A DNA stretch of 22,811 nucleotides from a virus, in IMG/VR virus record IMGVR_UViG_3300037353_000022, positions 1-22,811 of that record; one strand, given 5' to 3'. This document shows positions 1,695 through 19,797 of this stretch, one piece after another (positions within the stretch are counted from its first letter, which is position 1; every line of letters begins with the position of its first letter). A program made the position numbers and the translations under genes. Below the pieces are notes generated by a model. It saw only the letters and a program-made list of their open reading frames with translations. It was not told where the DNA came from and did no database searches.

Positions 1695-1856
1695 ATCAAA
1701 AAGCTTCGAGCCCATGCGGCAACTCTGCTGCAGGGACTCGGAGTATTGGTGGTCTCGGGAGCTCTGGCGTGGTGGCAGCCCTGGGTCGGCTTGCTCTCGC
1801 TGGGAATCGGGCTGCTGGCGATCGGCGTGGCCTTGGAGTTGAGACTTGCTGGCTGA
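1695..1856 (+). CDS. Small membrane protein between terL and portal
   Basis: The 155 bases between TerL and the portal hold an open frame of about 53 residues that reads as a plausible protein: a basic start (IKKLRAHAATLLQGLG), a hydrophobic segment (VLVVSGALAW), a WWQPW turn, then a second hydrophobic segment (VGLLSLGIGLLAIGVAL) and a short ELRLAG end. Two transmembrane helices with a positive N-terminus are likely. Small hydrophobic proteins are common at this site in actinobacterial prophages; the role is unknown. The frame has no ATG, GTG or TTG before 1746. The position that fits best is ATC at 1695, preceded by GGGG at 1684-1687 (spacing 7); CTG 1725 or TTG 1746 are alternatives. Its stop overlaps the portal start, as with neighbouring genes. 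The frame is convincing; the start is not. Confidence 0.55.
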   Translation: MKKLRAHAATLLQGLGVLVVSGALAWWQPWVGLLSLGIGLLAIGVALELRLAG

Positions 1857-3213
1857 TCTGATCCGGCGCCGGTCCGAGGTGAGGGCCACCGGTAACCAAC
1901 TCTCGATGCCGGACTACCTCCGACTGTGGGAGCAGTTCGGCTACAACGGCGTCTCCTACGTCATCCCGGGCGGAAACATCGTCGAGATGACGGCGCTGAT
2001 GGCGCAGCGCAATCCCATCGTCGCCGCCTGCATCATGGCCCGCCAGCTGGTCTTCTCCGACGTTCGCCTGGCCTATCGCCGCCGACTCAAGGGACAGGTC
2101 GGGCCTCTCTACACCGACCAGACCCTCTCGTTGCTCCAGACCCCCTGGCCGCAGGGCACGACCTCCGACCTCTTCTCTCGGATGGAGGTCGACGGCTCGC
2201 TCTTCGGCAATTCGTACTGGGTCAACTCCGGTGAACGCCTGACCCGACTCGATCCGCCGTGCGTGAAGATCGTGACCGGCGACGTCGACGACGTCATCAC
2301 CGGCAAGCCCTATGGCAAGGTGCTGCTGGGGTACATCGTCGAGGACCGCTCCAAGCACACGGTCGCAACCTTCATGCCGGACGAGGTGGCTCACTACCGG
2401 CCGCAGCCGGATCCGAACCACGAGTTCAGGGGACTCTCCTGGCTCGGTAGCCTGCTCCCGGACGTGGTTGCCGACATGGACCTCAGCGACTACAAGCACG
2501 CTTTCCTGGCCAACGCGGCGACACCGAACATCGTCTTCTCCTTCACCCAGCCGATCGGCGAGGACGCGCTGCGGCGGTTCATGGAGAAGGTCGAGGGCCG
2601 CCACACCGGTCCTCAGTCCGGCTTCAAGAGCCTCTACCTCGGCGCCGGCGTCGATGCCAAGGTGGTCGGCTCCAACTTCTCCGACCTGGCCATGGACGCG
2701 GTCCAGTCCGCCGGCGAGACGCGGATCGCCGCGGCGGCCGGCGTCCCACCATCCTTGATGGGAATCTCGGAGGGGCTGAAAGGGTCGGCGCTCAACGCCG
2801 GCAACTACGCCTCGGCTCGCAGGAACTTCTCCGACCGGATCATCCGGCCCAACTGGCGCTCTGCCTGTGGGGCGCTGCAGACCCTCCTGGGCCCGCTCCA
2901 GGCCGGAGTGGAGCTCTGGTACGACGACCGGGAGACATCCTTTCTCCAGGCCGACATGCAGGACGCCGCCGAGGTTCGGCAGGCCGACTCAGCGACCCTG
3001 CTGAACCTCATCAACTCGGGCTTCGTGCCTGATACCGCTGTGCTGGCGGTGAGGACCGGCGACTGGTCCTACCTCGAGCACACCGGTCTGATCTCGGTGC
3101 AGATGCAGCCCATCAAGGCCAAGGACGCCGAGGACGACACCATACCCATCGCCCCGGTCCCGATCAAGGGCAAGGGCATCAAAGCTCCCGCTGCCGATGA
3201 GGAACCAGTGTGA
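1846..3213 (+). CDS. Phage portal protein (HK97 gp3-like)
   Basis: Forms the dodecameric ring at one capsid vertex through which DNA enters and to which the tail attaches. The 455 residues match the usual length of HK97-type portals. Recognisable parts are the N-terminal LWEQFGYNGVSYVIPGG and ALMAQRNPIVAACIMARQLVFSD, the middle GNSYW and VTGDVDDVITGKPYG, and the late GVPPSLMGISEGLKGSALNAGNYASA, which is characteristic of portals. The start is TTG 1846, preceded by GGAG at 1835-1838. The start overlaps the end of the small membrane frame by 11 bases and the stop overlaps the protease start (GTGA), so translation is probably coupled. Adjacency to TerL and the protease supports the call. Confidence 0.94.
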   Translation: MLADLIRRRSEVRATGNQLSMPDYLRLWEQFGYNGVSYVIPGGNIVEMTALMAQRNPIVAACIMARQLVFSDVRLAYRRRLKGQVGPLYTDQTLSLLQTPWPQGTTSDLFSRMEVDGSLFGNSYWVNSGERLTRLDPPCVKIVTGDVDDVITGKPYGKVLLGYIVEDRSKHTVATFMPDEVAHYRPQPDPNHEFRGLSWLGSLLPDVVADMDLSDYKHAFLANAATPNIVFSFTQPIGEDALRRFMEKVEGRHTGPQSGFKSLYLGAGVDAKVVGSNFSDLAMDAVQSAGETRIAAAAGVPPSLMGISEGLKGSALNAGNYASARRNFSDRIIRPNWRSACGALQTLLGPLQAGVELWYDDRETSFLQADMQDAAEVRQADSATLLNLINSGFVPDTAVLAVRTGDWSYLEHTGLISVQMQPIKAKDAEDDTIPIAPVPIKGKGIKAPAADEEPV

Positions 3214-4385
3214 AACTCAAACTTCGCTCAGCCATCGCGGTCCACCACACCGCGACCGACACCGGCTCCTGGGATGGCCCGGCCGCCGAGAAGGCGCTGC
3301 CGAACGACGATGGCGAGGCCCTCTACAAGCAGGAGTACGCCTGGGTCGATCCCAAGGCGGACCCGGATACCAAGTCCGCCTACAAGTTCCCTCACCACGA
3401 CGTGAGCGATGGGAAGGTGGGCGCCGCCAACACCAGCGCCTGCTCGGCTGGGATCGGTGTGCTCAACGGTGGCCGCGGCGGCACGGTGATTCCAGAAGCC
3501 GACGTCCAGGGCGTCTACGACCACCTGGCCGCGCACCTCAAGGACGCCAAGAAGGATGTCCCGGAGCTGAAGTCGGCAGCCCCCGCGCTCGGCCGCGAGA
3601 TCCGCGATGCCTTCATGCCCTGGGCAGTGGAGCTCCGGGCCCAAGCCGACGGCGACGGCACCGAGCTTCACGGCCACTTCTCCAAGTACCTGAAGTGGTA
3701 CCGGGTCGATTCCATGTTCGAGGGCTCGTTCATGGAGCGGATCATGCCCGGGGCGTTCGACAACACCATCGCCCAGCACCGCTCGCAGATGCGCGTGTGC
3801 TTCAACCACGGCTTCGACCCGTCGATCGGCGACAAGCCGCTTGGGCCGATCGAGACCCTCGATGGGTCTGGCGAGGGAGCCGAATACGGCGTGCCCCTCC
3901 TGGACACGGACTACAACCGCGACCAGGTCCTTCCTCTCCTGGAAGGACGCCTGATGAATGGCAAGCGGTCCGGGTCGATGCTGGGCGCCTCGATGGCCTT
4001 CTCGGCCACCGACGACACCTGGGATATGAAGCCTCGGCCGACCCAGGACAACCCCGACAGCCTGCCGCGTAGGTCGGTCAATGAGGCCCGCGTCTACGAG
4101 TTCGGGCCTGTCACCTTCCCGGCCAGCTCCAGCGCCACGGCAGGAGTCAGGTCGGGCACCGATGAATTCATCGAGCACTTGCTCAAGGACCCGAGGTTCG
4201 CTCTGCAACTCGCAAAGCGGTCGAGCCTCAGCTACGTCGACAAGGCGATTGAGGCCGCGCGCAGCCGTGCTGGCGCAGCCGACCCGGCGACCGAACCCGA
4301 TGAGCCGACCAGTGGTGGCTCCAGGGCCGCAGGAATGCTCGCGCGTCAAGCCGAGCGACACCCGCTTATGGAGTTCAAGCCATGA
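3210..4385 (+). CDS. Prohead protease (S78/U35 family) with N-terminal extension
   Basis: Serine protease that cleaves scaffold and capsid precursor during head maturation. The 391 residues are about twice the length of a minimal HK97 protease. Residues ~125-330 are the protease: LHGHFSKYLKWYRVDS, then VCFNHG with the likely catalytic His at 200, and SMLGASMAF with the likely nucleophile Ser near 261. Residues 1-120 form a separate domain with HHTATDTGSWDGPAAEKALP, SAYKFPHHDV, LNGGRGG and VYDHLAAHL; this extension recurs in phage proteases and its function is not known to me. The C-terminal ~60 residues are polar and Ala/Pro-rich and may be scaffold-like. The GTG start overlaps the portal stop and the stop overlaps the capsid ATG. 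Confidence 0.88.
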   Translation: MKLKLRSAIAVHHTATDTGSWDGPAAEKALPNDDGEALYKQEYAWVDPKADPDTKSAYKFPHHDVSDGKVGAANTSACSAGIGVLNGGRGGTVIPEADVQGVYDHLAAHLKDAKKDVPELKSAAPALGREIRDAFMPWAVELRAQADGDGTELHGHFSKYLKWYRVDSMFEGSFMERIMPGAFDNTIAQHRSQMRVCFNHGFDPSIGDKPLGPIETLDGSGEGAEYGVPLLDTDYNRDQVLPLLEGRLMNGKRSGSMLGASMAFSATDDTWDMKPRPTQDNPDSLPRRSVNEARVYEFGPVTFPASSSATAGVRSGTDEFIEHLLKDPRFALQLAKRSSLSYVDKAIEAARSRAGAADPATEPDEPTSGGSRAAGMLARQAERHPLMEFKP

Positions 4386-5899
4386 CTCTCGAGGAGATGA
4401 GGAAGCGCGTTCTGGCCCTTCAGGCCGAGATGCGTGGTCTCACCGACAAGCAGACCAAGTTCGAGGCGGATGCCGCGGACGACAAGATCGCAGCCGACAA
4501 GAAGGCTCCGGCCCTGACCGAGGACGAGGAGAAGCGCTTCAAGGAAGTGCTGGCCGAGGCCGACACGGCGCTGCCGGAGCTGCGCCAGCTGGAAGAGCGT
4601 GCCCAGAAGGTGGCGGCCCTCCAGGGAGCTGCGACCGGACGCACTGACGGGTTCAGCGCGCCGGCGCAGCACAACAGTCGCAACCCCTTCGAGATCGACC
4701 TCAGGGACGCACGCCCCGAGGCTCGCAGCGAACGGCGGGACGCGGCGCTCAAGATCGTCGAGGAGTCGGAGAAGCGCTACCGCTTCTCGTCTCGGCAGAT
4801 GGACGAATTCGACCGGCTGCTCCGAGCGGGCAAGTCGGCCAACCTGGACTCGGACTACATCGCCCAGCGGGCGATCATCACTGAGTCCGACGCCTACCAC
4901 CGGGCCTTCATGAAGGGCCTCGGCGGAGACACGGTCTTCGAGCCTGACGAGGCCCGAGCCATCTCGGCCTACCGCGAGCTGGAGCGGCGCGCTGCGTCTG
5001 AGGGCACCATGTCCGCAGGCGGGTACGGCGTCCCGGTCCTGATCGACCCAACCATCGTCCTGACCTCAGGAGCGCTCGACGCTCCGATCATGGCCATCTC
5101 AAAGGTGGTCACGATCACGACCGATCAGTGGAAGGGCGTCACTTCCACCGGCCTGACCTTCGAGATCACCCAGGAAGCGAGCGTTGTCGCTGACAAGACC
5201 CCGACCCTGGCCCAGCCCACCATCCCGGTCTACCGGGCGGATGGGTTCATCCCCTACTCCTTCGAGATCGGGGAGGACTACCCCGGCTTCGCCGAGGAGA
5301 TGGCCGGCCTTTTGGAGCAGGGGTACATCAACCTGCTCGCCCAGAGCACCATGACCGGTTCTGGAAGCAGCTACCCGACCGGGATCTTCACCGCGCTCAA
5401 GGCCTCCGGTGGCAACTGCGCCAACGGCACCTCGGGCAAGGAGGTCACGCTGACCACCCTGGGGACCCTCGGGGCGATCGACATCCGCGATTGCTGGAGC
5501 TCTCTCGGTGAGCTGTTCCGGCAGCGGTCGAGCTGGGTCATGAACGTGACGACCGAGTCGGTCATCCGAGCGTTCGGCAACAACCTGGCGCTCTCTGACT
5601 TCACCCAGGACCTGACCGCGCAGGGCGTCGACAAGCTGGTGAGCCGGCCAGTGGTCCTCTCGGACTACGCGCCGACCTACAGCACGGCGACCACCACCGT
5701 CACCCAGTACTGCGTGCTCGGAGACTTCTCGAAGTTCCTGATCGTGCAGCGAGCGGGGATGGTGGTCGAGCAGGTGCAGCACCTGTTCGATCCCACGACC
5801 GGCCGTCCCACTGGTCAGCGCGCGTGGCTGGCCTGGAGCCGATACGGCCACAACGCCTTGGACAGCAACCCCTTCCGGGTCCTGTCCAACGGAGGCTGA
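4382..5899 (+). CDS. Major capsid protein, HK97 fold, with N-terminal delta domain
   Basis: Main shell protein, 505 residues. Residues 1-~85 are a charged coiled coil (LEEMRKRVLALQAEMRGL, EDEEKRFKEVLAEADTALPE), typical of the scaffolding delta domain that the upstream protease removes. The rest resembles HK97-type capsids: MSAGGYGVPVLIDPTIVL after the N-arm, VVTITTDQWKGVTST, EASVVADKTPTLAQPTIP, a spine-helix region around FAEEMAGLLEQGYINLLAQ, LGAIDIRDCWSSLGELFRQRSSWVMN, and a C-terminal end with ALDSNPFRVL. The ATG at 4382 overlaps the protease stop (ATGA). A strong hairpin follows the gene, as often seen after highly expressed capsid genes. Confidence 0.94.
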   Translation: MTLEEMRKRVLALQAEMRGLTDKQTKFEADAADDKIAADKKAPALTEDEEKRFKEVLAEADTALPELRQLEERAQKVAALQGAATGRTDGFSAPAQHNSRNPFEIDLRDARPEARSERRDAALKIVEESEKRYRFSSRQMDEFDRLLRAGKSANLDSDYIAQRAIITESDAYHRAFMKGLGGDTVFEPDEARAISAYRELERRAASEGTMSAGGYGVPVLIDPTIVLTSGALDAPIMAISKVVTITTDQWKGVTSTGLTFEITQEASVVADKTPTLAQPTIPVYRADGFIPYSFEIGEDYPGFAEEMAGLLEQGYINLLAQSTMTGSGSSYPTGIFTALKASGGNCANGTSGKEVTLTTLGTLGAIDIRDCWSSLGELFRQRSSWVMNVTTESVIRAFGNNLALSDFTQDLTAQGVDKLVSRPVVLSDYAPTYSTATTTVTQYCVLGDFSKFLIVQRAGMVVEQVQHLFDPTTGRPTGQRAWLAWSRYGHNALDSNPFRVLSNGG

Positions 5900-6041: not shown

Positions 6042-6317
6042 TTGGCGAAAGACATTGTGTTTGCGCGCGACGGCGCCCTGCTCCAACTCGACAATGGACT
6101 GCCCTACCGGGTCTTCAAGGGACAGGCGTGGGCAGCAGAGGACCCCTTGGTGAAGCGGTGGCCCGCGCACTTCGTGGACACGCCAGACGTGTTCCACTCC
6201 GACGGACCGCCCACCACACCCGACGATGCACCGGTCGAGCGTGCCGTTGCCGCACCCGGGCAGAAGCGTGGGTACATCCGGCGCACCCCTCAGCCGGAGT
6301 CGGCCAGCTCGTGGTGA
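6042..6317 (+). CDS. Small head-region protein of unknown function
   Basis: Protein of 91 residues from a TTG start with an excellent ribosome site. The N-terminal half (DIVFARDGALLQLDNGLPYRV, FKGQAWAAEDPLVKRWPAHF) resembles short proteins often encoded directly after the capsid in phages of high-GC Gram-positives, with a small beta fold followed by a D-P-x-V and a hydrophobic F motif. The C-terminal half is Pro/Ala-rich and probably disordered (PPTTPDDAPVERAVAAPG). A structural or head-completion role is suggested by position only. Its stop overlaps the GTG of the glycosyltransferase (GTGA at 6314-6317). Confidence 0.7.
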   Translation: MAKDIVFARDGALLQLDNGLPYRVFKGQAWAAEDPLVKRWPAHFVDTPDVFHSDGPPTTPDDAPVERAVAAPGQKRGYIRRTPQPESASSW

Positions 6318-7771
6318 ATGGGCCGAAGCACGACGTCCTGATGGGCTACCTGCATGGGAACGACACTGCAGCCACCTTCCAGAAGTCGCTCTTCGACCTC
6401 TTCGGCTACGACATGGCCCACGAGGGCCGGATCCGGCACTGGGTGTCTGTCAGGGCCCCGATCATGGGCATCCCCGACGCGCGGAACTCGCTCTGCCAGC
6501 AAGTGCTCAAGAGCGACGCTCAGTGGCTGTTCATGCTCGACGCGGACATGGGGTTCGAGCCGATCCTGCTCGACCTCCTGCTCTCGGTGGCGGATCCCAA
6601 GGAGCGGCCGATCGTCGGGGGCCTGGCTTTCTCACAGCGCGAGGCCGTCCCTGATGGGCGCAACGGATTCCGCACCTACCCCACTCCCACCATCTTCGAC
6701 TGGCGCCCGCATCCCCAGAAGGACGACGGCAGCTACCGATTCATCGGCCGGCTGCACTACCCGGTGAACACGCTGATTCAGGCCGGGGCCACAGGGGGCG
6801 CGGTGCTGGTAATCCACCGGTCTGTGCTGGAGCGGATCCAGACGAGAGATGGCGACCAGTGGTTCACGAGGATTCCGGACGCCGGCGGCGAGATGCAGGG
6901 CGAGGACATCTCCTTCTTCGACCGCTGCCGGCAGCTCGAGATCCCGCTCCACATCCACACCGGGATCAGGACGACCCACTTCAAGCATCGCTGGCTGGCC
7001 GAGGAGGACTACTGGCAGAGCTTCTTCGCCCCGCCCGCGACCGAAGAAGTGGACGTGATCGTGCCAGTGCTCCACCGGCCGCAGAACGTGAAGCCACTCA
7101 TGGAGTCGCTTCGCGCATCGACCGGACTCGCTAGAGCCTGGTTCGTCACCGAGCCCGATGACGACGAGGAAGCCGAGGAGGTCCGGAGCCGCGGCGGCCG
7201 GCTGATCCCTCACGCCGGGACCTTCTCTGAGAAGGTGAACCATGCCTTCCGCTACCTGGCCACGCCTCCGATCGAGGCCGCCCCGTGGGTGCTCCTGGTC
7301 GGTGACGACGTCCGCTTCCGGCCCGGGTGGCTCGACCACGCCCAGGACATCGCTCGCCGCTACAACGCGATGGTGGTCGGGACGAACGACCTGGCCAATG
7401 CGCGGGTGATGCGCGGCGAGCACGCCACCCATCCGATGATCTCCCGGGCTTACGTCGACGAACTCGGCTCCTCATGGGACGGCCCGGGCGTGGTCTGCCA
7501 CGAGGGTTACCGGCACTGGTACGTCGACGACGAGATCTGCAAGGTAGCCGTGCAGCGCGGAGTCTTTCAGGCTGCTCTGGCCTCCGAGGTCGAGCACCTC
7601 CACCCGATGGTTGGCAAGTCCGAGATGGACGAGGTCTACCAGCTCGGCCAGGCGCACACCGTCGAGGATGGCAAGCTCTTCCAGTCCCGCCTGGCCCGGT
7701 TCGCCGGTGGACCCAACCGTGACCAGCGTCGGCATCCGGAGAAGCGGCCGCAGCTGGTCCTGGCTCGGTGA
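6314..7771 (+). CDS. Two-domain glycosyltransferase in the head operon
   Basis: Protein of 485 residues with two GT-A-type (family 2-like) domains. Domain 1 (about residues 5-235) has DARNSLCQQVLKSDAQ followed by WLFMLDADMGFEP, with the D-A-D metal/nucleotide-sugar motif at 76-78, then GGAVLVIHRSVLERI and a late EDISFFDRCRQL, the pattern of phage and bacterial GT2 enzymes. Domain 2 (about 243-460) restarts with VDVIVPVLHRPQNVKPLMESL, contains LLVGDDVRFRPGW near residue 330 and VDDEICKVAVQRG. It would transfer sugar to a virion protein or another acceptor; the position between capsid and connector genes points to virion glycosylation, which is inference. An ATG at 6128 lies in the same frame, but the added residues are a shadow of the preceding gene; GTG 6314 (or 6311) fits the overlapping style. 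Confidence 0.85.
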   Translation: MNGPKHDVLMGYLHGNDTAATFQKSLFDLFGYDMAHEGRIRHWVSVRAPIMGIPDARNSLCQQVLKSDAQWLFMLDADMGFEPILLDLLLSVADPKERPIVGGLAFSQREAVPDGRNGFRTYPTPTIFDWRPHPQKDDGSYRFIGRLHYPVNTLIQAGATGGAVLVIHRSVLERIQTRDGDQWFTRIPDAGGEMQGEDISFFDRCRQLEIPLHIHTGIRTTHFKHRWLAEEDYWQSFFAPPATEEVDVIVPVLHRPQNVKPLMESLRASTGLARAWFVTEPDDDEEAEEVRSRGGRLIPHAGTFSEKVNHAFRYLATPPIEAAPWVLLVGDDVRFRPGWLDHAQDIARRYNAMVVGTNDLANARVMRGEHATHPMISRAYVDELGSSWDGPGVVCHEGYRHWYVDDEICKVAVQRGVFQAALASEVEHLHPMVGKSEMDEVYQLGQAHTVEDGKLFQSRLARFAGGPNRDQRRHPEKRPQLVLAR

Positions 7772-8121
7772 GCGACGTCTCATCGGCGGCGCTGGACGCT
7801 GCCCAGAACGCGATCATCGTCTCGGGCACCTCGTACTACATGAGCCTCCACAAGGCCGATCCCGGCCAGACGGGCGCCAACGAGGGCTCCGAGGGAAGAC
7901 AGCTGATCAAGTTCGGCTCTTCCTCCGGCGGTAGCCAGGCATCGACCGATGCTCAGACCTGGGCCTCGGCCGTGGGCGGGACGTACCCCTACTTCGGCAT
8001 CTGGACAGCGTCGTCCGGAGGCACGTACCAGCGCGGTGGATCACTCACCAGCACGATCGTCGTGCCCGGTGGCGCTGAGATCAACTTCCCGACCGGCGAC
8101 ATCCTCCTGGAGGCCGCATGA
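7768..8121 (+). CDS. Small virion protein, LHKADPGQTGANEG type
   Basis: Protein of 117 residues. The motif YYMSLHKADPGQTGANEG followed by GRQLIKFGSSSGG matches a widespread small phage structural family (typical motif S-L-H-T-A-D-P-G-x-T-G-A-N-E) that is predicted beta-rich and found near head-tail or tail genes. The C-terminal part (FGIWTASSGGTYQRGGSLT, VPGGAEINFPTGDI) is consistent with a jelly-roll-like strand pattern. The GTG start overlaps the glycosyltransferase stop (GTGA) and the stop overlaps the next ATG. The exact role, for example decoration or tail component, cannot be decided here. Confidence 0.75.
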   Translation: MSDVSSAALDAAQNAIIVSGTSYYMSLHKADPGQTGANEGSEGRQLIKFGSSSGGSQASTDAQTWASAVGGTYPYFGIWTASSGGTYQRGGSLTSTIVVPGGAEINFPTGDILLEAA

Positions 8122-8441
8122 CCGCAACGCCGGGCTACGTGGTCCTCTCGACCCCGCAGTCCAAGTACACGGTCGGCTCGCTGATCCCGCTCACCGCGAC
8201 CTTCTACGACCTCCAAAACAACCTAGTGGATCCAGGCGCCGTCACCATCGAGTACTCGCCGGCTGGGACCACCACGGTCACGGCGCTCGAGGACGTAACG
8301 CAGGTCTCGACCGGCGTCTACACCGGCGACCTGGACACGACCGGAATGGCTGTCGGCGATGTCCTGTGGGAGGCGGCCGGCACTGGAGCTTGCCAGGCCA
8401 ACGGACAGGACCAGTTCACGCTCGACGAACTCCCCTTCTAG
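8118..8441 (+). CDS. Ig-like beta-sandwich virion protein
   Basis: Protein of 107 residues with the strand pattern of an immunoglobulin-like domain: YTVGSLIPLTATFYDLQNNLVDP, VTIEYSPAGTTTVTAL, STGVYTGDLDTTGMAVGDVLWE. Single Ig-like domains are common as capsid decoration or virion surface modules, thought to bind carbohydrate or host surfaces weakly. It starts with ATG overlapping the preceding stop (ATGA) and ends with TAG at 8439-8441, which runs into the ribosome site of the connector gene. A decoration role is inferred from fold and position in the head-to-tail segment. Confidence 0.65.
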   Translation: MTATPGYVVLSTPQSKYTVGSLIPLTATFYDLQNNLVDPGAVTIEYSPAGTTTVTALEDVTQVSTGVYTGDLDTTGMAVGDVLWEAAGTGACQANGQDQFTLDELPF

Positions 8442-8450
8442 GAGCGCCCC

Positions 8451-9131
8451 TTGAGCTACAACATCCCGCACCCGTTGTGCTCGCTTACCGACGTCAAGAC
8501 GGCGATGAGCGTCGATGACACCAGCGACGACTACCAGCTCTCGATGTGCATCGAGGCGGCAAGTCGAGAGATCGAGCAGTACTGCGGGAGGCATTTCTGG
8601 CAGACCTCGACCGTCTACGCCCACATCATGACCGCTCTCAACTCCTGGGAGGTCCTCTTCCCCGAGGACGTGATGACGCTCAACGGCCTCGAGATCGCCC
8701 TGGACATGGCCGGCGACGGCACTTTCTCCACGGTCCTCGAGAACCCAACCCAGAACGAGGACGGCTCCCTGACCGGTGGAGACTTCCAGCTCGAGCCGCT
8801 GAACGGCAGGCTCAATGGCCAGCGGTGGCCCTGGGAGCGCTACCAGATGGTGGCTTCCCAGTACAACCCGATCTGGGGTGGCATCGCGTATCCCCGGCCC
8901 TACGTCCAGGCCCTGGTCAAGATCACCGCCCAGTGGGGCTGGGACTACGTGCCGGTTCCGGTCAAGCGAGCCTGCATCTACGAGACCATCTCGCTCCTTA
9001 AGGCCGGCGACGTGCCCTTCGGCGCCACCGCCTTCGGCGAGTCAGGCGTCCTTCGACTCCGGCCGACCATGCACCCCACGGCAGAACGGCTGCTGATTCC
9101 CTACGGGCGCGACGAGGTGCCAGTCTTTTGA
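8451..9131 (+). CDS. Head-tail connector / adaptor protein (gp6-like)
   Basis: Protein of 226 residues. The N-terminal part (CSLTDVKTAMSVDDTSDDYQLSMCIEAASREIEQYCGRHFW) is the helical signature of head-tail adaptors that bind under the portal. The middle beta-rich segment (MTLNGLEIALDMAGDGTF, RYQMVASQYNPIW) and the later ALVKITAQWGWDYVPVPVKRACIYETISLLK are typical of longer actinophage versions. The start is TTG 8451 with AGGAG at 8440-8444. The stop overlaps the next TTG (TTGA). The family assignment is firm; whether it is adaptor or stopper is less so. Confidence 0.82.
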   Translation: MSYNIPHPLCSLTDVKTAMSVDDTSDDYQLSMCIEAASREIEQYCGRHFWQTSTVYAHIMTALNSWEVLFPEDVMTLNGLEIALDMAGDGTFSTVLENPTQNEDGSLTGGDFQLEPLNGRLNGQRWPWERYQMVASQYNPIWGGIAYPRPYVQALVKITAQWGWDYVPVPVKRACIYETISLLKAGDVPFGATAFGESGVLRLRPTMHPTAERLLIPYGRDEVPVF

Positions 9132-9574
9132 CTGCGACGGTGACCGCAATCGCGACGGCGATCGGACAGACCATCTCGGCCAATTGCCAAACCCCGGCGG
9201 GTAAACCGATCCGCTATCTCACGGAGCTGAGGGACCCGGTGAACCCGCCCGTCTTGCTGGTTGGAATCAGCAAGGTTGAGTACCACGCGGCCATGGGTCG
9301 CGGCAATGTCCCCCACTCGTTCGACGTGCATCTGATCCTGGCCCGGGCGAGCGATCGCGCCGCGCTCCTGGCCATGGAGGCCTACATGTCCGCGGAGGGG
9401 CCTTCGTCGATCGCCTCTGCGGTGGAGACCAAGGACGAGAGCCTGGCACGGTCGCTAGGAGGCGTGGTGCAGGACTGCGTGTGCGTCGAATCGGGTCCTC
9501 CTGCGGGACTCAACATCGGAACCTCGGGTGCGGTCTATCTGATGGTGCCGTTCAAGGTGGAAGTTATCGCATGA
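9128..9574 (+). CDS. Tail terminator / tail completion-like protein
   Basis: Protein of 148 residues located between connector and tail tube, where the tail terminator is normally encoded. The N-terminus (TATVTAIATAIGQTISAN) is a helix, then strands: PPVLLVGISKVEYHAAMG, FDVHLILARASDRAALLAMEAYM, and VYLMVPFKVEVIA at the end. This helix-then-strand order with a long central helix resembles tail terminators that cap the tube. The TTG start overlaps the previous stop (TTGA at 9128-9131). Function is assigned from order and secondary-structure pattern. Confidence 0.6.
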   Translation: MTATVTAIATAIGQTISANCQTPAGKPIRYLTELRDPVNPPVLLVGISKVEYHAAMGRGNVPHSFDVHLILARASDRAALLAMEAYMSAEGPSSIASAVETKDESLARSLGGVVQDCVCVESGPPAGLNIGTSGAVYLMVPFKVEVIA

Positions 9575-9735
9575 AATACCGCGTCCTATCGGCGAATTTC
9601 GTCAAGCCCAAGGGCGAGCTGGTCGCCCCCGAGGACCTGCAAGGCCTGAACGTTCCCGCCCTCATCGAGGCCGGGCATCTAGCGGAAGAGCCGGACCCAC
9701 CGGCGAAGGACAAGGAGCCGAAACCCAATGGCTAA
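9571..9735 (+). CDS. Small protein between terminator and tube genes
   Basis: Protein of 54 residues beginning MKYRVLSANFVKPKGELV, then LQGLNVPALIEAGHLAEEP and a Lys/Pro/Glu-rich end (PPAKDKEPKPNG). The short beta-plus-helix start resembles small proteins that are often encoded near tail genes in this phage type; no function is known to me. The ATG at 9571 overlaps the previous stop (ATGA), which decides the start over the in-frame ATG-like codon further upstream, and the stop TAA overlaps the tail tube start by 8 bases. Confidence 0.7.
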   Translation: MKYRVLSANFVKPKGELVAPEDLQGLNVPALIEAGHLAEEPDPPAKDKEPKPNG

Positions 9736-10144
9736 GATGAACCTGATCGCAGTCCAGGTGGTGGTCAACTCCGTTGACCTCAGCGCCTGGGTTGACACCG
9801 TGGACCTGGAAGAGGCCTACGCCGACACTGACACGACCGCATTCGGCAGCGGGTCCAAGACTCGCCAGGCGGGGCTTGGCGACCACAAGGTCACCCTCGA
9901 TTTCCAGCAAGACTGGGCGCTCTCCGCGGTTGAGGCAACCATCTATCCCCTGCTCGGCACGACCGTGGCCGTCGCAATCGTGCCCGTCTCGGGGACGATG
10001 TCGTCGACCAACCCGGGCTACTTGTTCTCGGCGCTCATCAACAGCTGGCATCCCATCAACGGCAAGGTCGGCGACCTGGCGAAGAGCTCGGTCAGTTGGC
10101 CCGTCTCTGGCGGAGTGACCAAGCTCACCTCGGGCACTGTCTGA
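9728..10144 (+). CDS. Major tail (tube) protein
   Basis: Protein of 138 residues, a common length for compact siphovirus tube proteins. The sequence VVVNSVDLSAWVDTVDLEEAYADTDTTAFGSGSKTRQAGLGDHKVTLDFQQDW is characteristic: a strand, the variable acidic loop, then the TR-x-x-GL-x-D-x-x-V-T-L-D-F-x-Q-D-W signature seen in actinophage tail proteins. The end (SSVSWPVSGGVTKLTS) is a final strand. It directly precedes the tail assembly chaperone and tape measure genes, the canonical position. It overlaps the previous gene by 8 bases. Confidence 0.82.
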   Translation: MAKMNLIAVQVVVNSVDLSAWVDTVDLEEAYADTDTTAFGSGSKTRQAGLGDHKVTLDFQQDWALSAVEATIYPLLGTTVAVAIVPVSGTMSSTNPGYLFSALINSWHPINGKVGDLAKSSVSWPVSGGVTKLTSGTV

Positions 10145-11074: not shown

Positions 11075-13210
11075 ATGGCCGATCGCCTCGTGCGCGTCAT
11101 GGTGACCGCCGACACCGCGGCAGCCATGCGGAATATCGGGGCGCTGGCTGAAGAGTCGGACGCCGTTGCCGCGGACTCCTCGGCGGTCATGGGCGAGACC
11201 GCAGCCAAGACGGGGAACGTCTTCGAGCGTCTCGGTAACTCCATGGCCAACTGGGGCCTTCCCTTCTCTGGCTCCGTAACCAAGATGGGCCAGAACCTCG
11301 AGGAGGCTGACACCAAGGGCCAGAAGTTCGGATCCGCGCTCTCGTCGGTCGGCAAGGTAGCGCTAATCGGCGTCGCGGTCGCGGCAGCTGGAGCGGCGGC
11401 AGAGTCCATGCATCTCGCCGACGAGTTCGACAAGGCGACCAACTCGATTGCGGCCAACGCCGGGATCTCGCAGAAGGCGGCCAAGACGATCGGAGACAGT
11501 TTCCTCAACAGCGCTCAGGGGACGATCTACTCGGGGACACAGGTTGCCCAGGCCTACGCGGGTGTCGCGGCCCAGCTGGCCACGGTGCAAGGGAAGGCGC
11601 TCAATGCCGGGCAGGCGACCAGCGTGATGAAGGCCGCGATGGACCTGGCAGAAGCGACGGGCGAGGACCTGAACACGACGGCGAGCTCGCTGGGCACGAC
11701 CATGCAGCTCTACGGCATCAAGGCGGCCGGGGCCACCAACGCCTCGAACATCCTGTACAACGCCGGCAAGGAGACCGGTGCCGGACTGGAGGCGGTCACC
11801 AAGGCTGTGACCAAACTGCATTCTCAGCTGGGCGTCGCCACGCCCCCCCTGGCCCAGGTTGGTGCGCTGCTCGAGGACCTAGCAAAGCACGGTGAGTCAG
11901 GGCGCCAGGGACTGTCTGCTGCATCAACCGCCATGGCGACCTTGATGAAGGCGTCGGTGGGTGTGACCCAGGCCCAGCAGCAGCAGAGCGCCATCTACAA
12001 AGAGATGTCGCCTCAGCTCCAGAGCCTGGTCAGTCAGTACCAGTCGGGGGCAATGTCTTACACGACCTTCGACGCCGCCGCCCAGGGGTTGGGTGAGACC
12101 CAGTACAACCTGGCTAGTCAGTTCGCCTCGGCTGGTGCTGCCGTGCAGACGGCTCAGACCAAGCTCGCCACGATGGGGATCACGGTCGACAACGCCAAGG
12201 GCAAGTTTGTCGGCATGGCCTCGGTGATCACCCAGCTGCACACCAAGATCCAGGGGATGAGCCAGGCCCAGGCCTTGGCCACCGTGGGCCAGGTCTTCGG
12301 CACGACGGCGGCTCAGAAGATGCTCACGACGATCGAGGCAGGGCCAGCTGCCTATGAGAAGTCGGCTGCAGCGATCGCGAAGCACAACTCCACCGCCGCG
12401 GCTGCCAGCAAAGCCATGGACAACATGGGCGACCAGTTCAAGATCATCGGCAAGGACGTGGAAGATGTCGGCGTCAAGGTTGGCGAGGTCCTCCTTCCCC
12501 CGATGGAGAAATTCATGGGATTTCTCACTGGGCACATGTGGGTGCTAGGAGCGCTCGCCGGAGTGATCGGTGGAGCGCTCGTGGTGGCGATGGCGGCCTA
12601 TACCGTCAACACGATCGCTGCCGCGGCGGCGACCCTCGGACTTACCTGGCCTATCGTGGCGATCGTCGCCGGCGTGGCGCTCCTGGTGGCTGGAATCATT
12701 CTCCTGGTGACCCACTGGAACCAGGTCTGGGGAGCGATCGTGGCCACAGCTCAGGGTGTTTGGACAAGCATCAAGACCGGGCTGGTCGACCCCATCGTGA
12801 ACTTCTTCATCAGCCTCCCCAATACCATCAAGAATGCCTTTGGGACGCTGGCGAGCGCCATCACATCGCCCTTCCGGGACGCATTCAACCTGGTGGCCAC
12901 GCTCTGGAACAACACCCTGGGGAAGCTCAGCTTCTCCATCCCCGGGTGGGTGCCCATGATTGGTGGAGACAAGTTCTCGCTGCCCAAGATCCCCACGCTC
13001 GCCACGGGCGGGATGGTGACCGGCGATGGCCTGGCATATCTCCATGCGGGTGAGGTCGTGGTCAACCAGCAGCAGCAGGTAGCTGCAGCAGGTGGCGGGG
13101 GTTCCCAGGTGAACATCAACGTCACCTCGAATGACGGCCAGGCGGTTGTAAACGCCCTCAAGCTCTACATGCAATCCCACGGAAGCGTGCCGATCCGCAC
13201 GACGGGGTAA
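11075..13210 (+). CDS. Tail tape measure protein
   Basis: Protein of 711 residues that sets tail length (roughly 0.15 nm per residue suggests about 105 nm) and is released during DNA injection. Residues ~110-470 are the TP901-type core: EFDKATNSIAANAGISQKAAKTIGDS, GQATSVMKAAMDLAEATGEDLNTTASSLGTTMQLYG, ALATVGQVFGTTAAQKML. Three hydrophobic segments follow in the WVLGALAGVIGGALVVAMAAYTV to ALLVAGIILLVTHW region (~485-550). The end has LATGGMVTGDGLAYLHAGEVVVN, the usual tape-measure C-terminal signature, and a Gly-rich QQQQ/GGGG linker. ATG 11075 is preceded by GGAGG at 11063-11067. Confidence 0.93.
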   Translation: MADRLVRVMVTADTAAAMRNIGALAEESDAVAADSSAVMGETAAKTGNVFERLGNSMANWGLPFSGSVTKMGQNLEEADTKGQKFGSALSSVGKVALIGVAVAAAGAAAESMHLADEFDKATNSIAANAGISQKAAKTIGDSFLNSAQGTIYSGTQVAQAYAGVAAQLATVQGKALNAGQATSVMKAAMDLAEATGEDLNTTASSLGTTMQLYGIKAAGATNASNILYNAGKETGAGLEAVTKAVTKLHSQLGVATPPLAQVGALLEDLAKHGESGRQGLSAASTAMATLMKASVGVTQAQQQQSAIYKEMSPQLQSLVSQYQSGAMSYTTFDAAAQGLGETQYNLASQFASAGAAVQTAQTKLATMGITVDNAKGKFVGMASVITQLHTKIQGMSQAQALATVGQVFGTTAAQKMLTTIEAGPAAYEKSAAAIAKHNSTAAAASKAMDNMGDQFKIIGKDVEDVGVKVGEVLLPPMEKFMGFLTGHMWVLGALAGVIGGALVVAMAAYTVNTIAAAAATLGLTWPIVAIVAGVALLVAGIILLVTHWNQVWGAIVATAQGVWTSIKTGLVDPIVNFFISLPNTIKNAFGTLASAITSPFRDAFNLVATLWNNTLGKLSFSIPGWVPMIGGDKFSLPKIPTLATGGMVTGDGLAYLHAGEVVVNQQQQVAAAGGGGSQVNINVTSNDGQAVVNALKLYMQSHGSVPIRTTG

Positions 13211-16590: not shown

Positions 16591-16612
16591 AGCTATGCAC
16601 TTTGGAGATTTC

Positions 16613-17020
16613 ATGCTTCTAACGACGGTCGCGCCGTCGCTAGGCTCATCTCCTAGCTACGTTTCACTGATCTTTTACGCGCTGGCCATTCTCGGCGTCC
16701 TGGGCGGCGCCGTTTCGTACTTCCGAGGGAGTCTCGGCCAAGCGACGATCGCGCAGCTGGAGACCAACAACAAGGTCCTCAAGCAGACAGTCGATCTCCA
16801 GACAGAGCAGATCACCGAGCTAAAGGCCCAGAACCAAGAGCAGGCCGGCCAGCTCACCGTCCTCCGCGAGCAGGTAACCCAGAAGGCTGCGGTCGCGGAA
16901 CTGGCCAAGCTGTCGAGTAGTCATCACAGCGAGTTGATGGAAGCCATTGGGGCACTAACAAAGGCTCTCTCAAACAACATCCAGAAGCCTGCTTCGAGGG
17001 CTCGACGTGCCGGATCTTAA
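16613..17020 (+). CDS. Membrane-anchored coiled-coil protein
   Basis: Protein of 135 residues. One transmembrane helix (YVSLIFYALAILGVLGGAVSYF, about residues 16-37) is followed by a long coiled coil (ATIAQLETNNKVLKQTVDLQTEQITELKAQNQEQAGQLTVLREQVTQ) and a basic end (KPASRARRAGS). ATG 16613 is preceded by GGAG at 16604-16607 with spacing 5, so it is preferred to ATG 16595, which lies 5 bases from the switch repeat. Such proteins are common downstream of tail genes in phages of Gram-positive bacteria; role in lysis or as an envelope protein is not known. The end overlaps the next gene by 14 bases. Confidence 0.7.
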   Translation: MLLTTVAPSLGSSPSYVSLIFYALAILGVLGGAVSYFRGSLGQATIAQLETNNKVLKQTVDLQTEQITELKAQNQEQAGQLTVLREQVTQKAAVAELAKLSSSHHSELMEAIGALTKALSNNIQKPASRARRAGS

Positions 17021-17447
17021 GGGTGCCGTCAGGCATGATCGCCTAACTTTCCGGATCGCCGCTGTCGCCTTCGCTTGCTCGCTCCTGGCCATAGGCTTGT
17101 TGTTCGGTCAGTCAATTGCTGTGTCCGATTATGGCGTGGAGTTGGCGCGCGCCAACCACCAACTGATCGAGCTCCACAAGGCCGAGATACTCCGGGACGG
17201 CGAGACCATCCAGGATCTCCAGCATCGGGTTCTAGCGATTGATGCCGTGCTGGATCGCTACTGCAAGGCGCTTGAAGTGCCGTGCCCGCCTCCGCTGACC
17301 GTGCCTAGGGCATCGGGCAGTAACTCCACAGCGACGCCCGCGCCCAGTGAGAGCCGCGCCAGTCCTTCGGGTGAGCCAACGGCCACGCCGAGCCCCAAGC
17401 CGCTGCCGACGCCAGTCCTCTGTATCGGGAGTTTCTGCATTGGATGA
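17007..17447 (+). CDS. Membrane-anchored protein with Pro/Ser-rich tail
   Basis: Protein of 146 residues. A basic start (MPDLKGAVRHDRLTFR) leads into one transmembrane helix (IAAVAFACSLLAIGLLFG, about residues 17-34), then a coiled-coil stretch (ELARANHQLIELHKAEILRDGETIQDLQHRVLAIDAVLDRYCKAL), then a low-complexity Pro/Ser/Thr linker (TPAPSESRASPSGEPTATPS) and a Cys-containing end (VLCIGSFCIG). The topology suggests an extracytoplasmic or wall-spanning stalk. GTG 17007 has GAGGG at 16996-17000, spacing 6. It forms a pair with the preceding membrane coiled-coil protein; joint action at the envelope is inference. Confidence 0.7.
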   Translation: MPDLKGAVRHDRLTFRIAAVAFACSLLAIGLLFGQSIAVSDYGVELARANHQLIELHKAEILRDGETIQDLQHRVLAIDAVLDRYCKALEVPCPPPLTVPRASGSNSTATPAPSESRASPSGEPTATPSPKPLPTPVLCIGSFCIG

Positions 17448-18474
17448 CCTGGTCCTCGAGCGCATCACGGCTCCCAAGCCGGTCGGCGCGTACCTGCACT
17501 CGCTCCCCTGGCCTGACGGACTTGCGCCCAGACCGTCGACCGTGACCTACCCCGCGAACGCATCGCTGCCCAAGGCCGAGGTGCTCATCGTCACCTACAC
17601 CACGGCCGAGAGCCACGCTCTCGCGGACACCCTGACGCCCGGCCACCAGGCCGAGGACTGGAACCGGTACACCAAGAACTGGGCGCAGTTCGAGAAGCAC
17701 CTGACCGAGCGCTCGCCGGCCAAGTTCTCGCGCTGCCTAGCCTCCTACTGGGTGACGCAGATCGACCAAACGGTCGTCATTTGCGCCAAGTCAGACCTGC
17801 ACCTCAGCACCGACGATGCAACCCTGCCCATCCGAGCCCTCTTCAAGCAGATGATCGAGGACTGCCAGCCGAGGCTGGTCATCACCACCGGTACCGCCGG
17901 CGGGATCGGTTCCTCGGAGTCGCTGGGCGACGTGCTGGTGACCAACACGTCCCACTTCGACTGCCAGAAGACCTTTGGGAAAGAGCCCTTCGCTCACTCG
18001 CAGTACGTCTGCGCTGCCAGCGCGCAACTGGCGGTGGCCGAGAACTATGCGGACATCGGCTCGCTGCTGGACGCGAACGCCGCCGAGCTTGACCCGGTGG
18101 CTACGCACGAGCCCCGGGTCATCGGGCTTGACGCCCTCCAGAAAGGTGAGCACGTCCTCACCACCGACTTCTTTGCATTCGACGACTCGGCCAACAGCTA
18201 CGGGCTGCGGACCTACGACCCGGATGCAGGCATGGTCGAGATGGATGACGCGGTCCTGGGCCTGGTCTGCCAGGAGGACCTGACCAACCCCCCGCCGTGG
18301 CTCTCGATTCGCAACGCCTCGGATCCCCAGATGGTCAACGAGCCGGATCAATCGCTTGAGCAGCTGGCCAAGCAGGCCAGCGACATCTATCTCAAGTACG
18401 GCTACTGGACGACGGTCGGATCGGCGATCTGCTGCTGGGCAGCTGTCGTGACCTTCTCCGGTGTCCAGCCGTGA
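17440..18474 (+). CDS. Nucleoside phosphorylase-superfamily (PNP/MTAN-like) protein
   Basis: Protein of 344 residues from TTG 17440, preceded by GGGAG at 17427-17431. The fold signatures are AEVLIVTYTTAESHAL at the start of the Rossmann-like core, PRLVITTGTAGGIGSSESLGDVLVTN (glycine loop about 150-157), VEMDDAVLGLVC (M268-D269, in place of the usual M-E), and LSIRNASDPQ with a candidate catalytic Asp at 295, then a closing helix (GSAICCWAAVVTF). Family members cleave purine nucleosides or nucleotides; some are effectors of antiphage systems that destroy ATP or other nucleotides. Here it sits among late membrane and lysis genes and is not a usual virion gene. Substrate and role are unknown; a phage-benefit accessory gene is the likeliest reading. 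Confidence 0.75.
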   Translation: MDDLVLERITAPKPVGAYLHSLPWPDGLAPRPSTVTYPANASLPKAEVLIVTYTTAESHALADTLTPGHQAEDWNRYTKNWAQFEKHLTERSPAKFSRCLASYWVTQIDQTVVICAKSDLHLSTDDATLPIRALFKQMIEDCQPRLVITTGTAGGIGSSESLGDVLVTNTSHFDCQKTFGKEPFAHSQYVCAASAQLAVAENYADIGSLLDANAAELDPVATHEPRVIGLDALQKGEHVLTTDFFAFDDSANSYGLRTYDPDAGMVEMDDAVLGLVCQEDLTNPPPWLSIRNASDPQMVNEPDQSLEQLAKQASDIYLKYGYWTTVGSAICCWAAVVTFSGVQP

Positions 18475-18599: not shown

Positions 18600-18832
18600 T
18601 TGCGGGCAAATTCACCTGGTACGAGGCAGCGATCATTTTCGTGGGTGTGCTCAGCTTCGCTCACATCCCCTTCACCTACTGGCTCTACCACACTCGCCAC
18701 CACCTCAAGAAGGATCTCGACGAGGCAGCGGTGAAGCAGATCGAGCACCTGGTGGGCATACACCCCACGGCCGGCGCTGAGCACCAGCCCGTCCCTAGTC
18801 CGCCCGACGAGGTCGTGGCGAGGGAGCCATGA
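18596..18832 (+). CDS. Small single-span membrane protein
   Basis: Protein of 78 residues. One hydrophobic helix (AAIIFVGVLSFAHIPFTYWLY, about residues 11-31) is followed by a charged segment (HTRHHLKKDLDEAAVKQIEHLVGIHP) and a Pro-rich end. It lies immediately before the lysin gene and overlaps it (ATGA at 18829-18832). A holin-like or holin-partner role is possible by position, but a second, better holin candidate follows the lysin. No family is recognised. Confidence 0.7.
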   Translation: MIAGKFTWYEAAIIFVGVLSFAHIPFTYWLYHTRHHLKKDLDEAAVKQIEHLVGIHPTAGAEHQPVPSPPDEVVAREP

Positions 18833-19797
18833 GCCGGGTCTGGACGGTCCACAACCTCAAGAGCCTGCGGGCCATGCTTGCCGCCGGCGTGGGCCTGGTG
18901 GCCGACAGCGCATCCGCGCCCACCCCAGCTCAGGCACTCGCCTTCAAGGCTGCCGGCGGTGTCGCCTGGGGTGGCTACATCGGGAAGGCTGGCGACGACC
19001 TGGAGAACCCCTGGACGGCTGCGGACTTCGCCACCATCCGAGCAGCTGGCCTCGTCGCCTTCGCCTTCGTCAGTGGCGACGACGACCCGGCCTGGGTCCG
19101 CGACGAAGCGACCTCGATGGGCGTCACGCTGATCATCTTGGACGTCGAGAACGGCATCCGCGGCGACGGCGCCTGGGTCGATCCCTGGCTGGCCACGAGC
19201 GGCGCGGGAATCTACGGCAACCCCCCGGTCATGGATAACCACGCGATGCATGGTCATCCCTGCTACATCGGCGCCGCCTATCCGGAGGACGGCACCCAGA
19301 CGGCCGCGTGGCCGTCCGACGCAACCGCGCCCATCCCCGCACGGCCGATGGGCTGGCAGTGGGCTGACAACGGCTCTTACGGCGGCCTAACCGTCGATCT
19401 CAGCAATTACCAAATGACGGTCTTCGGGTCGTCGCCAGCCCCAGGAGGAGACGCGGACATGTTCATCCAACAGAACCCGGCTGGAACCGCTGACCAGTAC
19501 GTCATCAACCCCCCGTTCAAGCACCCGATCACGACCTTTGCTGATCAGCAAGACCTGGTCCATAACATCGGCTTGGCGGCCTACGGCCCGGCCGACGGGA
19601 TCTCCCAGGAATACTTCGACAGCCTGATCGTCCTAACCTCCCTGAGCCAGTTGCAGGGGGCGCCCGGGAAGGACGGCACTAACGGGTCTGACGGCACCGA
19701 CGGAGAGCCCGGCCCTCCTGGCAAGCCAGGGCCAGCGGGTAAGACCCCGTCGACGGCGACCCTGAGCGGCCCGGTCAAGCTCGCCTTCAGCAAGTAA
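18829..19797 (+). CDS. Lysozyme-like lysin with collagen-like C-terminus
   Basis: Protein of 322 residues. Residues 1-~205 have the layout of GH25 or DUF1906-type glycoside hydrolase-like domains: LVADSASAPTPAQALAFKAAGG, WGGYIG, TAADFATIRAAGLVAFAFVSG, LIILDVENG (D105 and E107 as candidate catalytic residues), GAGIYGNPPVM, and MGWQWADNGSYGG followed by VDLSNY. It would cleave peptidoglycan. Residues ~215-260 (MFIQQNPAGTADQYVINPPF) resemble a module common in actinophage lysins and tail proteins. Residues ~277-306 are ten Gly-X-Y triplets (GAPGKDGTNGSDGTDGEPGP), a collagen-like stalk unusual for a lysin; a virion-associated role is the alternative. Confidence 0.72.
   Translation: MSRVWTVHNLKSLRAMLAAGVGLVADSASAPTPAQALAFKAAGGVAWGGYIGKAGDDLENPWTAADFATIRAAGLVAFAFVSGDDDPAWVRDEATSMGVTLIILDVENGIRGDGAWVDPWLATSGAGIYGNPPVMDNHAMHGHPCYIGAAYPEDGTQTAAWPSDATAPIPARPMGWQWADNGSYGGLTVDLSNYQMTVFGSSPAPGGDADMFIQQNPAGTADQYVINPPFKHPITTFADQQDLVHNIGLAAYGPADGISQEYFDSLIVLTSLSQLQGAPGKDGTNGSDGTDGEPGPPGKPGPAGKTPSTATLSGPVKLAFSK

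Follow-up and report, generated by a model that had tools for sequence, protein, structure and literature searches.

The window, that is, the whole 22,811-base stretch of DNA analysed here, is one virus record. It carries a glycosyltransferase gene inside a head module, with the following features:

185-1690: large terminase
1846-3213: portal
4382..5899, + strand: HK97-type major capsid protein (MCP; phrog_10), whose lineage has domain 1 of the transferase as a core gene
6042..6317, + strand: small post-MCP protein of 91 aa, directly preceding the transferase, with a beta domain and a low-confidence tail
6314..7771, + strand: two-domain GT-A glycosyltransferase of 485 aa, with a GTG start
6315-6317, + strand: TGA stop of the upstream gene, in a 4-nt overlap with the transferase gene
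7768, + strand: GTG start of the downstream gene, in a 4-nt overlap with the transferase stop
7768..8121, + strand: head protein (phrog_240; Pfam Gp80), overlapping the transferase stop by those 4 nt
8118-8441: product without family assignment
8451-9131: head-tail adaptor
9128-9574: tail terminator
9728-10144: major tail protein
11075-13210: tape measure

The original prediction, made from the letters of this DNA, had described a double GT-A chain within the head operon, with a DAD motif in one half and a GDD motif in the other, overlapped by head genes on both sides. Both observations are confirmed: the open reading frame, its PHROG matches, a structural model and residue conservation all show the double chain, and the overlaps amount to 4 nt on each side. 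The same prediction called the 8118-8441 product Ig-like, a label that we could not confirm, with no family match below E 0.06. Farther along the window, the gene at 17347-18474, which lies after a possible lysis gene, matches the phosphorylase superfamily (PNP_UDP_1, E 3.9e-6). The gene at 16595-17020 has a weak Rz-like spanin match (phrog_739, 1.1e-5) that may be a chance coiled-coil match; a real Rz-like spanin would suggest an outer-membrane host, at odds with the actinobacterial relatives. Neither tRNA genes nor Rfam families were found in the window.

The two halves of the transferase match separate PHROG glycosyltransferase profiles, phrog_34859 at residues 53-239 (E 9e-19) and phrog_14945 at residues 245-448 (E 6.5e-8). 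Among the 29 members of the transferase alignment, the first profile matches all 29 and the second 23. Against Pfam Glycos_transf_2 (PF00535), the second half scores 21.8 bits, below the curated cut-off of 23.3, which the relatives L035, L049, L108 and L118 do pass. The two domains and their conserved acidic and histidine positions are:

6314..7042, + strand: domain 1 (phrog_34859-like; residues 1-243), which forms the conserved core
6539..6547, + strand: D76-A77-D78 in domain 1, both Asp in 131 of 131 sequences
6902..6907, + strand: E197-D198 in domain 1, 131 of 131
6977..6979, + strand: H222 in domain 1, 129 of 131
7043..7768, + strand: domain 2, residues 244-485, phrog_14945-like GT-A, the variable module
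7301..7309, + strand: G330-D331-D332 in domain 2, in 47, 44 and 47 of 47 sequences
7526..7534, + strand: D405-D406-E407 in domain 2, in 47, 43 and 47 of 47
7595..7597, + strand: H428 in domain 2, 46 of 47

Conservation in domain 1 was counted across 131 non-redundant sequences, with matches of E above 1e-20 or fewer than 190 profile positions excluded and near-copies collapsed at 95%. For domain 2, we used the 47 of 54 fused genes with long matches. Further positions are invariant in these sets, namely R57, G161 and H168 in domain 1 (131 of 131) and P251, R255 and H373 in domain 2 (47 of 47). By analogy with GT-A enzymes, the donor/metal and catalytic positions would be the DxD motif, the acidic pair that follows it and the histidine towards the end of each domain. 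Because both sites are under constraint, domains 1 and 2 are very likely both active, as judged from residue conservation.

Consistent with the profile matches, an AlphaFold2 model of the transferase computed from 29 homologues (pLDDT 91.9, pTM 0.88; poorly defined only at residues 1-3 and the last 19) shows a chain that is, as modelled, two complete GT-A folds. Both are globular, and the model contains no separate membrane-spanning helix pair. In model comparisons, the closest solved fold to domain 1 is STIV A197 (Z 19.3, rmsd 2.5, 174 aligned), and domain 2 superimposes on PcManGT (Z 18.6, rmsd 3.2, 211 aligned); domain 2 also matches heparosan synthase, GalNAc-T2 and others at Z of about 17-18.6 (Foldseek, VIA-align). 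Over the whole chain, Foldseek ranks collagen galactosyltransferases highest, at an rmsd of about 16. The whole chain does not superimpose on two-domain enzymes of known structure (rmsd about 15-21), and no solved structure thus offers a parallel for how the two sites are placed relative to each other. We also considered an internal duplication as the origin of the two domains and rejected it: their profiles align unconvincingly (hhalign probability 2.1%, E 0.023), which argues for distinct GT-A domains and against a recent repeat. In this comparison, the DAD region is aligned with the GDD region.

A protein scan with the transferase found 37 distinct viral loci, of which a few cover only part of the chain and two show no difference from the window within the matched region. 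This recurrence, together with the conservation of domain 1, indicates that the two-domain chain is not a chance arrangement. All relatives with this chain are uncultivated. Among 50,697 phage records, tblastn at E 1e-5 returned two remote matches of about half length, both from 'Caudovirales sp. ct2KA10'. Bacterial genomes gave at least seven matches; those listed are all to domain 1 alone, at 26-40% identity, and four of the seven listed are in actinobacteria. The gene order portal, MCP, small protein, transferase, adaptor is repeated across the relatives.

We approached the same locus from the capsid side with an MCP-anchored scan of the same viral collection, using as query an MCP alignment that held no transferase information. 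The analysis covered the best 80 of 589 MCP relatives, which sample the part of that family closest to the window, and the 19 of these loci with less than 2 kb downstream were left uncounted. Domain 1 follows the MCP in 58 of the 61 remaining loci, those with at least 2 kb downstream among the best 80 of 589 relatives; the three without it are L230, L231 and L251. The proportion is 43 of 45 when loci are collapsed at 90% MCP identity, and 57 of 60 upon removal of L182, the contig of L002, which is identical to the window over the transferase. In L037, MCP matches fall in two pieces (1811-2674 and 3622-4467), suggesting that its capsid gene has an insertion, an intron or an assembly break.

On an MCP tree of 185 rows (137 with domain 1 and 48 without), the presence of domain 1 needs 6 changes, compared with a mean of 42.9 for shuffled labels, where none of 500 shuffles was as low as 6. 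This is a FastTree phylogeny with flagged long branches, and some of its rows were fetched via the transferase itself. The GT-independent rows by themselves (135, of which 90 have domain 1 and 45 do not) need 5 changes, where shuffled labels average 37.8 with a minimum of 32 in 100 shuffles. Within this MCP lineage, domain 1 belongs to the core genes and is co-inherited with the capsid gene. This co-inheritance makes glycosylation of the virion likelier than could be known from the letters of the window.

Domain 2 behaves differently. The 131 non-redundant domain-1 genes include 54 fusions with domain 2, 18 cases in which domain 2 is a separate open reading frame nearby, 12 fusions with another module and 6 genes cut by the end of the contig. 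In the other 41, neither arrangement was detected, 'neither' meaning that there is no domain-2 profile match; some such loci (L034, L051 and L243) have other transferases next door. Since these 41 genes show no second module of any kind tested for, a chain that performs two steps is not a requirement. For the 102 rows with enough downstream DNA, domain 2 needs 15 changes on the MCP tree (shuffled mean 32.6), indicating that the second module moves more than domain 1. Two further split genes were rejected as natural arrangements: in L014, a single-base nonsense change lies between the domains and the sister L015 is 99.9% identical, and L032 differs from L022 by an indel.

The other second modules include Pfam-recognised GT2 domains (L035, L049 and L108) and an FkbM methyltransferase (L048). 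Further enzymes are encoded next to domain 1, including a C-methyltransferase in L035, a TylF-like methyltransferase in L044 and a hexapeptide/PglD-type acyltransferase in L108. A 2OG-Fe(II) oxygenase gene lies right after the transferase in L033 (6587-7213), L036 (5825-6409) and L050 (5997-6608), hinting at hydroxylation coupled to glycosylation. Oxygenases, methyltransferases and acyltransferases are expected content of a glycan-building cassette; of these enzyme types, the window itself has the double transferase only. The gene set fits a modular cassette for virion glycosylation, for which mycobacteriophage Corndog is a precedent.

We favour, as the probable explanation, a soluble bifunctional GT-A transferase that is made together with the head proteins and glycosylates a virion protein. 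Its expression would coincide with that of the head genes, and its target would most likely be a head or neck protein from the same operon. Domain 1 would carry out the common step, plausibly the addition of the first sugar to Ser or Thr of a virion protein, the O-linkage being presumed. Domain 2 would add a second, lineage-specific sugar, such that the fused enzyme could build a disaccharide-type decoration. In sister phages, where domain 2 is separate, replaced or absent, the outer glycan would vary and the first step would be kept. We infer this order, domain 1 and then domain 2, because domain 1 is constant and domain 2 is replaceable. The nature of the sugars and their purpose, which may be shielding, stability or adsorption, are likewise matters of interpretation.

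Virion glycosylation had already been put forward in the original prediction, and it gains from the presence of two GT-A domains, their constrained catalytic-type residues, the position in the head module, the co-inheritance and the precedent of phage Corndog, which together make it more likely. The accompanying idea of two different sugars or a disaccharide fits a constant first module whose partner is exchanged or becomes a separate gene. As for the targets named there, nothing that we found singles out either the capsid protein or the 8118 product. With regard to the capsid protein tail as a candidate acceptor, MCP C-termini are of similar length in the two groups, extending a median of 0 residues beyond the profile end in domain-1 loci and 3 in the others. 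The head protein at 7768..8121 is a possible candidate acceptor.

A different target within the virion, the tail tube or a fibre, would make the position of the gene a mere consequence of a continuous structural operon. Papers that cite the original work (PMC12363180, PMC12619734, PMC11600133) describe glycosylation of the tail tube as well as the capsid subunits of mycobacteriophages, and collagen galactosyltransferases are, as noted above, what Foldseek ranks highest over the whole chain. The window also encodes a protein with a collagen-like Gly-X-Y stretch containing several Thr/Ser (19657-19686). We nevertheless regard a tail or fibre target as improbable, since domain 1 tracks the capsid gene and the similarity to collagen galactosyltransferases, at an rmsd of about 16, is that of a generic double GT-A chain. 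Collagen was rejected as a general acceptor: the window has a 10-repeat Gly-X-Y stretch, yet stretches of at least 6 repeats occur in only 3 (the window, L006 and L041) of the 54 sequences scanned, and most of these 54 include only about 5 kb of flank. The collagen-like stretch of the window lies near the C-terminus of the 18829-19797 product (Pfam Collagen 1.9e-4, below the cut-off), which has no Pfam match outside it. In L041, a Gemmatimonadetes MAG contig that also has terminase, portal and MCP matches, a collagen-like GPT-rich protein (6714-7085) directly follows a lone domain 1.

A special case of the favoured explanation would make the small post-MCP protein the dedicated acceptor or docking partner of the transferase, recognised through a short tag in its tail:

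6234..6269, + strand: tail tag VERAVAAPGQKR; family consensus VEQATAAPGERR, with Val here at a position that is mostly Thr or Ser elsewhere

The small protein folds into a small beta domain, with a pLDDT of about 86-96 as far as residue 50, and a low-confidence tail follows. Its N-terminal part reaches at most Z 3.8 against solved folds (an SH3-like one) and has no viral match at E 0.001 or below. The protein resembles the 'head-tail connector' Gordonia phage Eyre gp7 and Brujita gp8, sharing with that family the position after the MCP, the beta domain and the tail motif; sequence similarity between the window protein and cultured family members is seen only via intermediates.

Several observations connect the tag to domain 1. 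Scans seeded with the small protein found 9 new distinct loci, and domain 1 adjoins in 8 of them. At the variable position within ATAAP, 36 of 37 proteins have Thr or Ser (Thr 32, Ser 4, Val 1), in a tail of low confidence that is probably flexible. Furthermore, the tag occurs on unrelated or nearly tag-only small proteins at 6 loci with 5 distinct carrier sequences (L060, L082/L107, L108, L118 and L122), and domain 1 always follows. The locus L051 (3674-3913) is a further VEQATAAPGERR-type recurrence.

The wider distribution of the tag argues against a dedicated role. An exact DNA scan for EQATAAPGE found at least 120 viral stretches, and the same exact pattern was absent from all 396 actinobacterial genomes scanned. 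Among the 119 tag loci listed, 18 were excluded for short downstream DNA, and the 101 assessable ones comprise 49 with domain 1 and 52 without it. A short tag carrier at the sequence edge of L114 likewise comes without domain 1. In the cultured Gordonia phages Eyre and ThankyouJordi, the tag belongs to gp7, a head-to-tail connector or hypothetical protein by annotation, and none of the neighbouring genes shown is a transferase; relatives of ThankyouJordi gp7 are present in 57 phage records. Conversely, the window tag has Val at the Thr position, the tag is missing from 3 of 40 listed members of the small-protein family, and 8 of the 61 MCP-scan loci have domain 1 and no tag match. Its occurrence in phages lacking the transferase suggests that the tag is older than, or independent of, the enzyme, and weakens the idea of a dedicated sequon of domain 1. 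The small protein is thus probably not a dedicated acceptor, and a role for the tag in docking or acceptance is possible, though not favoured.

We accordingly hold it unlikely that the small protein serves as the recognised partner, and we are equally doubtful of the broader scheme of peptide-directed glycosylation, in which the VEQATAAPGERR tag would act as docking site or acceptor and recruit domain 1 to the nascent head. If it were true, module 2 would write a lineage-specific outer sugar after a tag-guided domain 1, and the glycan coat of this capsid lineage would be obligatory yet variable, with a short transferable sequence as its address.

Two readings that place the target outside the virion fare worst. 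Glycosylation of phage DNA bases as a means of restriction evasion has a precedent in virus-encoded DNA-modifying glycosyltransferases (from a title cited in PMC12619734), but is very unlikely, as it fits poorly with the head-operon position and the co-inheritance with the MCP, and no base-hypermodification genes were found among the window genes scanned, in what is a 22.8-kb fragment. Modification of a host wall polymer or glycolipid, giving superinfection exclusion or a changed receptor, agrees with the PHROG category of phrog_34859 and phrog_14945 (moron/host takeover) and with the GT-A wall-teichoic-acid enzymes TarS and TarP among the structural matches of domain 2, but is highly improbable for two globular domains lacking a membrane-spanning helix pair, encoded among head genes by a lineage core gene that is not sporadic.

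Domain 1 thus hardly ever parts from this type of capsid gene (58 of 61 loci), while its partner module is freely swapped. This suggests that glycosylation is built-in head biology of a large uncultivated phage group with a variable outer sugar, a variation that we liken to antigenic variation. The loci, residues and neighbouring enzymes identified here are concrete starting points for tests of what phage glycans do; within the portions of the open-licence literature consulted, phage virion glycosylation is documented in a few mycobacteriophages only.

Other enzymes also hold two GT-A domains in one chain, including COLGALT1, LH3, mimivirus R699, K4 chondroitin polymerase and heparosan synthase; they share about 8-15% identity with the window transferase and do not superimpose on it over the whole chain. 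Its domain arrangement is unlike that of the two-domain polysaccharide synthases K4CP and heparosan synthase (2z87_A: rmsd 19.0, 377 aligned residues). PHROG treats 34859 and 14945 as separate families, whereas they are fused in the window, where domain 1 belongs to the core of the head module rather than to the sporadic morons. In the actinobacterial phage phiAsp2 of Actinoplanes, Pas33-35 encode a glycosyltransferase, a methyltransferase and a glucosyltransferase in a row, and Pas34 is a structural match of the window transferase; unlike the fused gene described here, these are separate genes that lie after the tail genes.

The closest parallels in function come from mycobacteriophages, although tblastn at E 1e-5 across the 50,697 phage records gave no match between the transferase and the Corndog or Che8 records. 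Capsid glycosylation in Che8 (cluster F) requires the glycosyltransferase gp110, as stated in a citing paper (PMC12363180); in Maravista, a Che8-related phage of cluster F1, the glycosyltransferases are encoded close to the genome's 3' end and apart from the head genes. Papers that cite Freeman et al. place glycans at the C-termini of capsid and tail tube subunits and associate them with weaker antibody recognition (PMC12363180, PMC12619734, PMC11600133), and one of them describes the Corndog capsid as glycosylated (PMC12363180). Corndog (cluster O) gp35-gp38, an O-methyltransferase, two glycosyltransferases and a GlcNAc-transferase, are encoded between portal and protease; in that report, the methyl- and glycosyltransferases were seen in infected cells and not in virions, and few capsid peptides were recovered (PMC4351075). 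As in the window, the Corndog glycosyltransferases, as described there, sit in the structural operon next to the capsid genes, but as separate genes upstream of the MCP rather than as a fused gene downstream of it. The arrangement described here, fused, modular and capsid-linked, is new, and its principle is known from phage virion glycosyltransferases.
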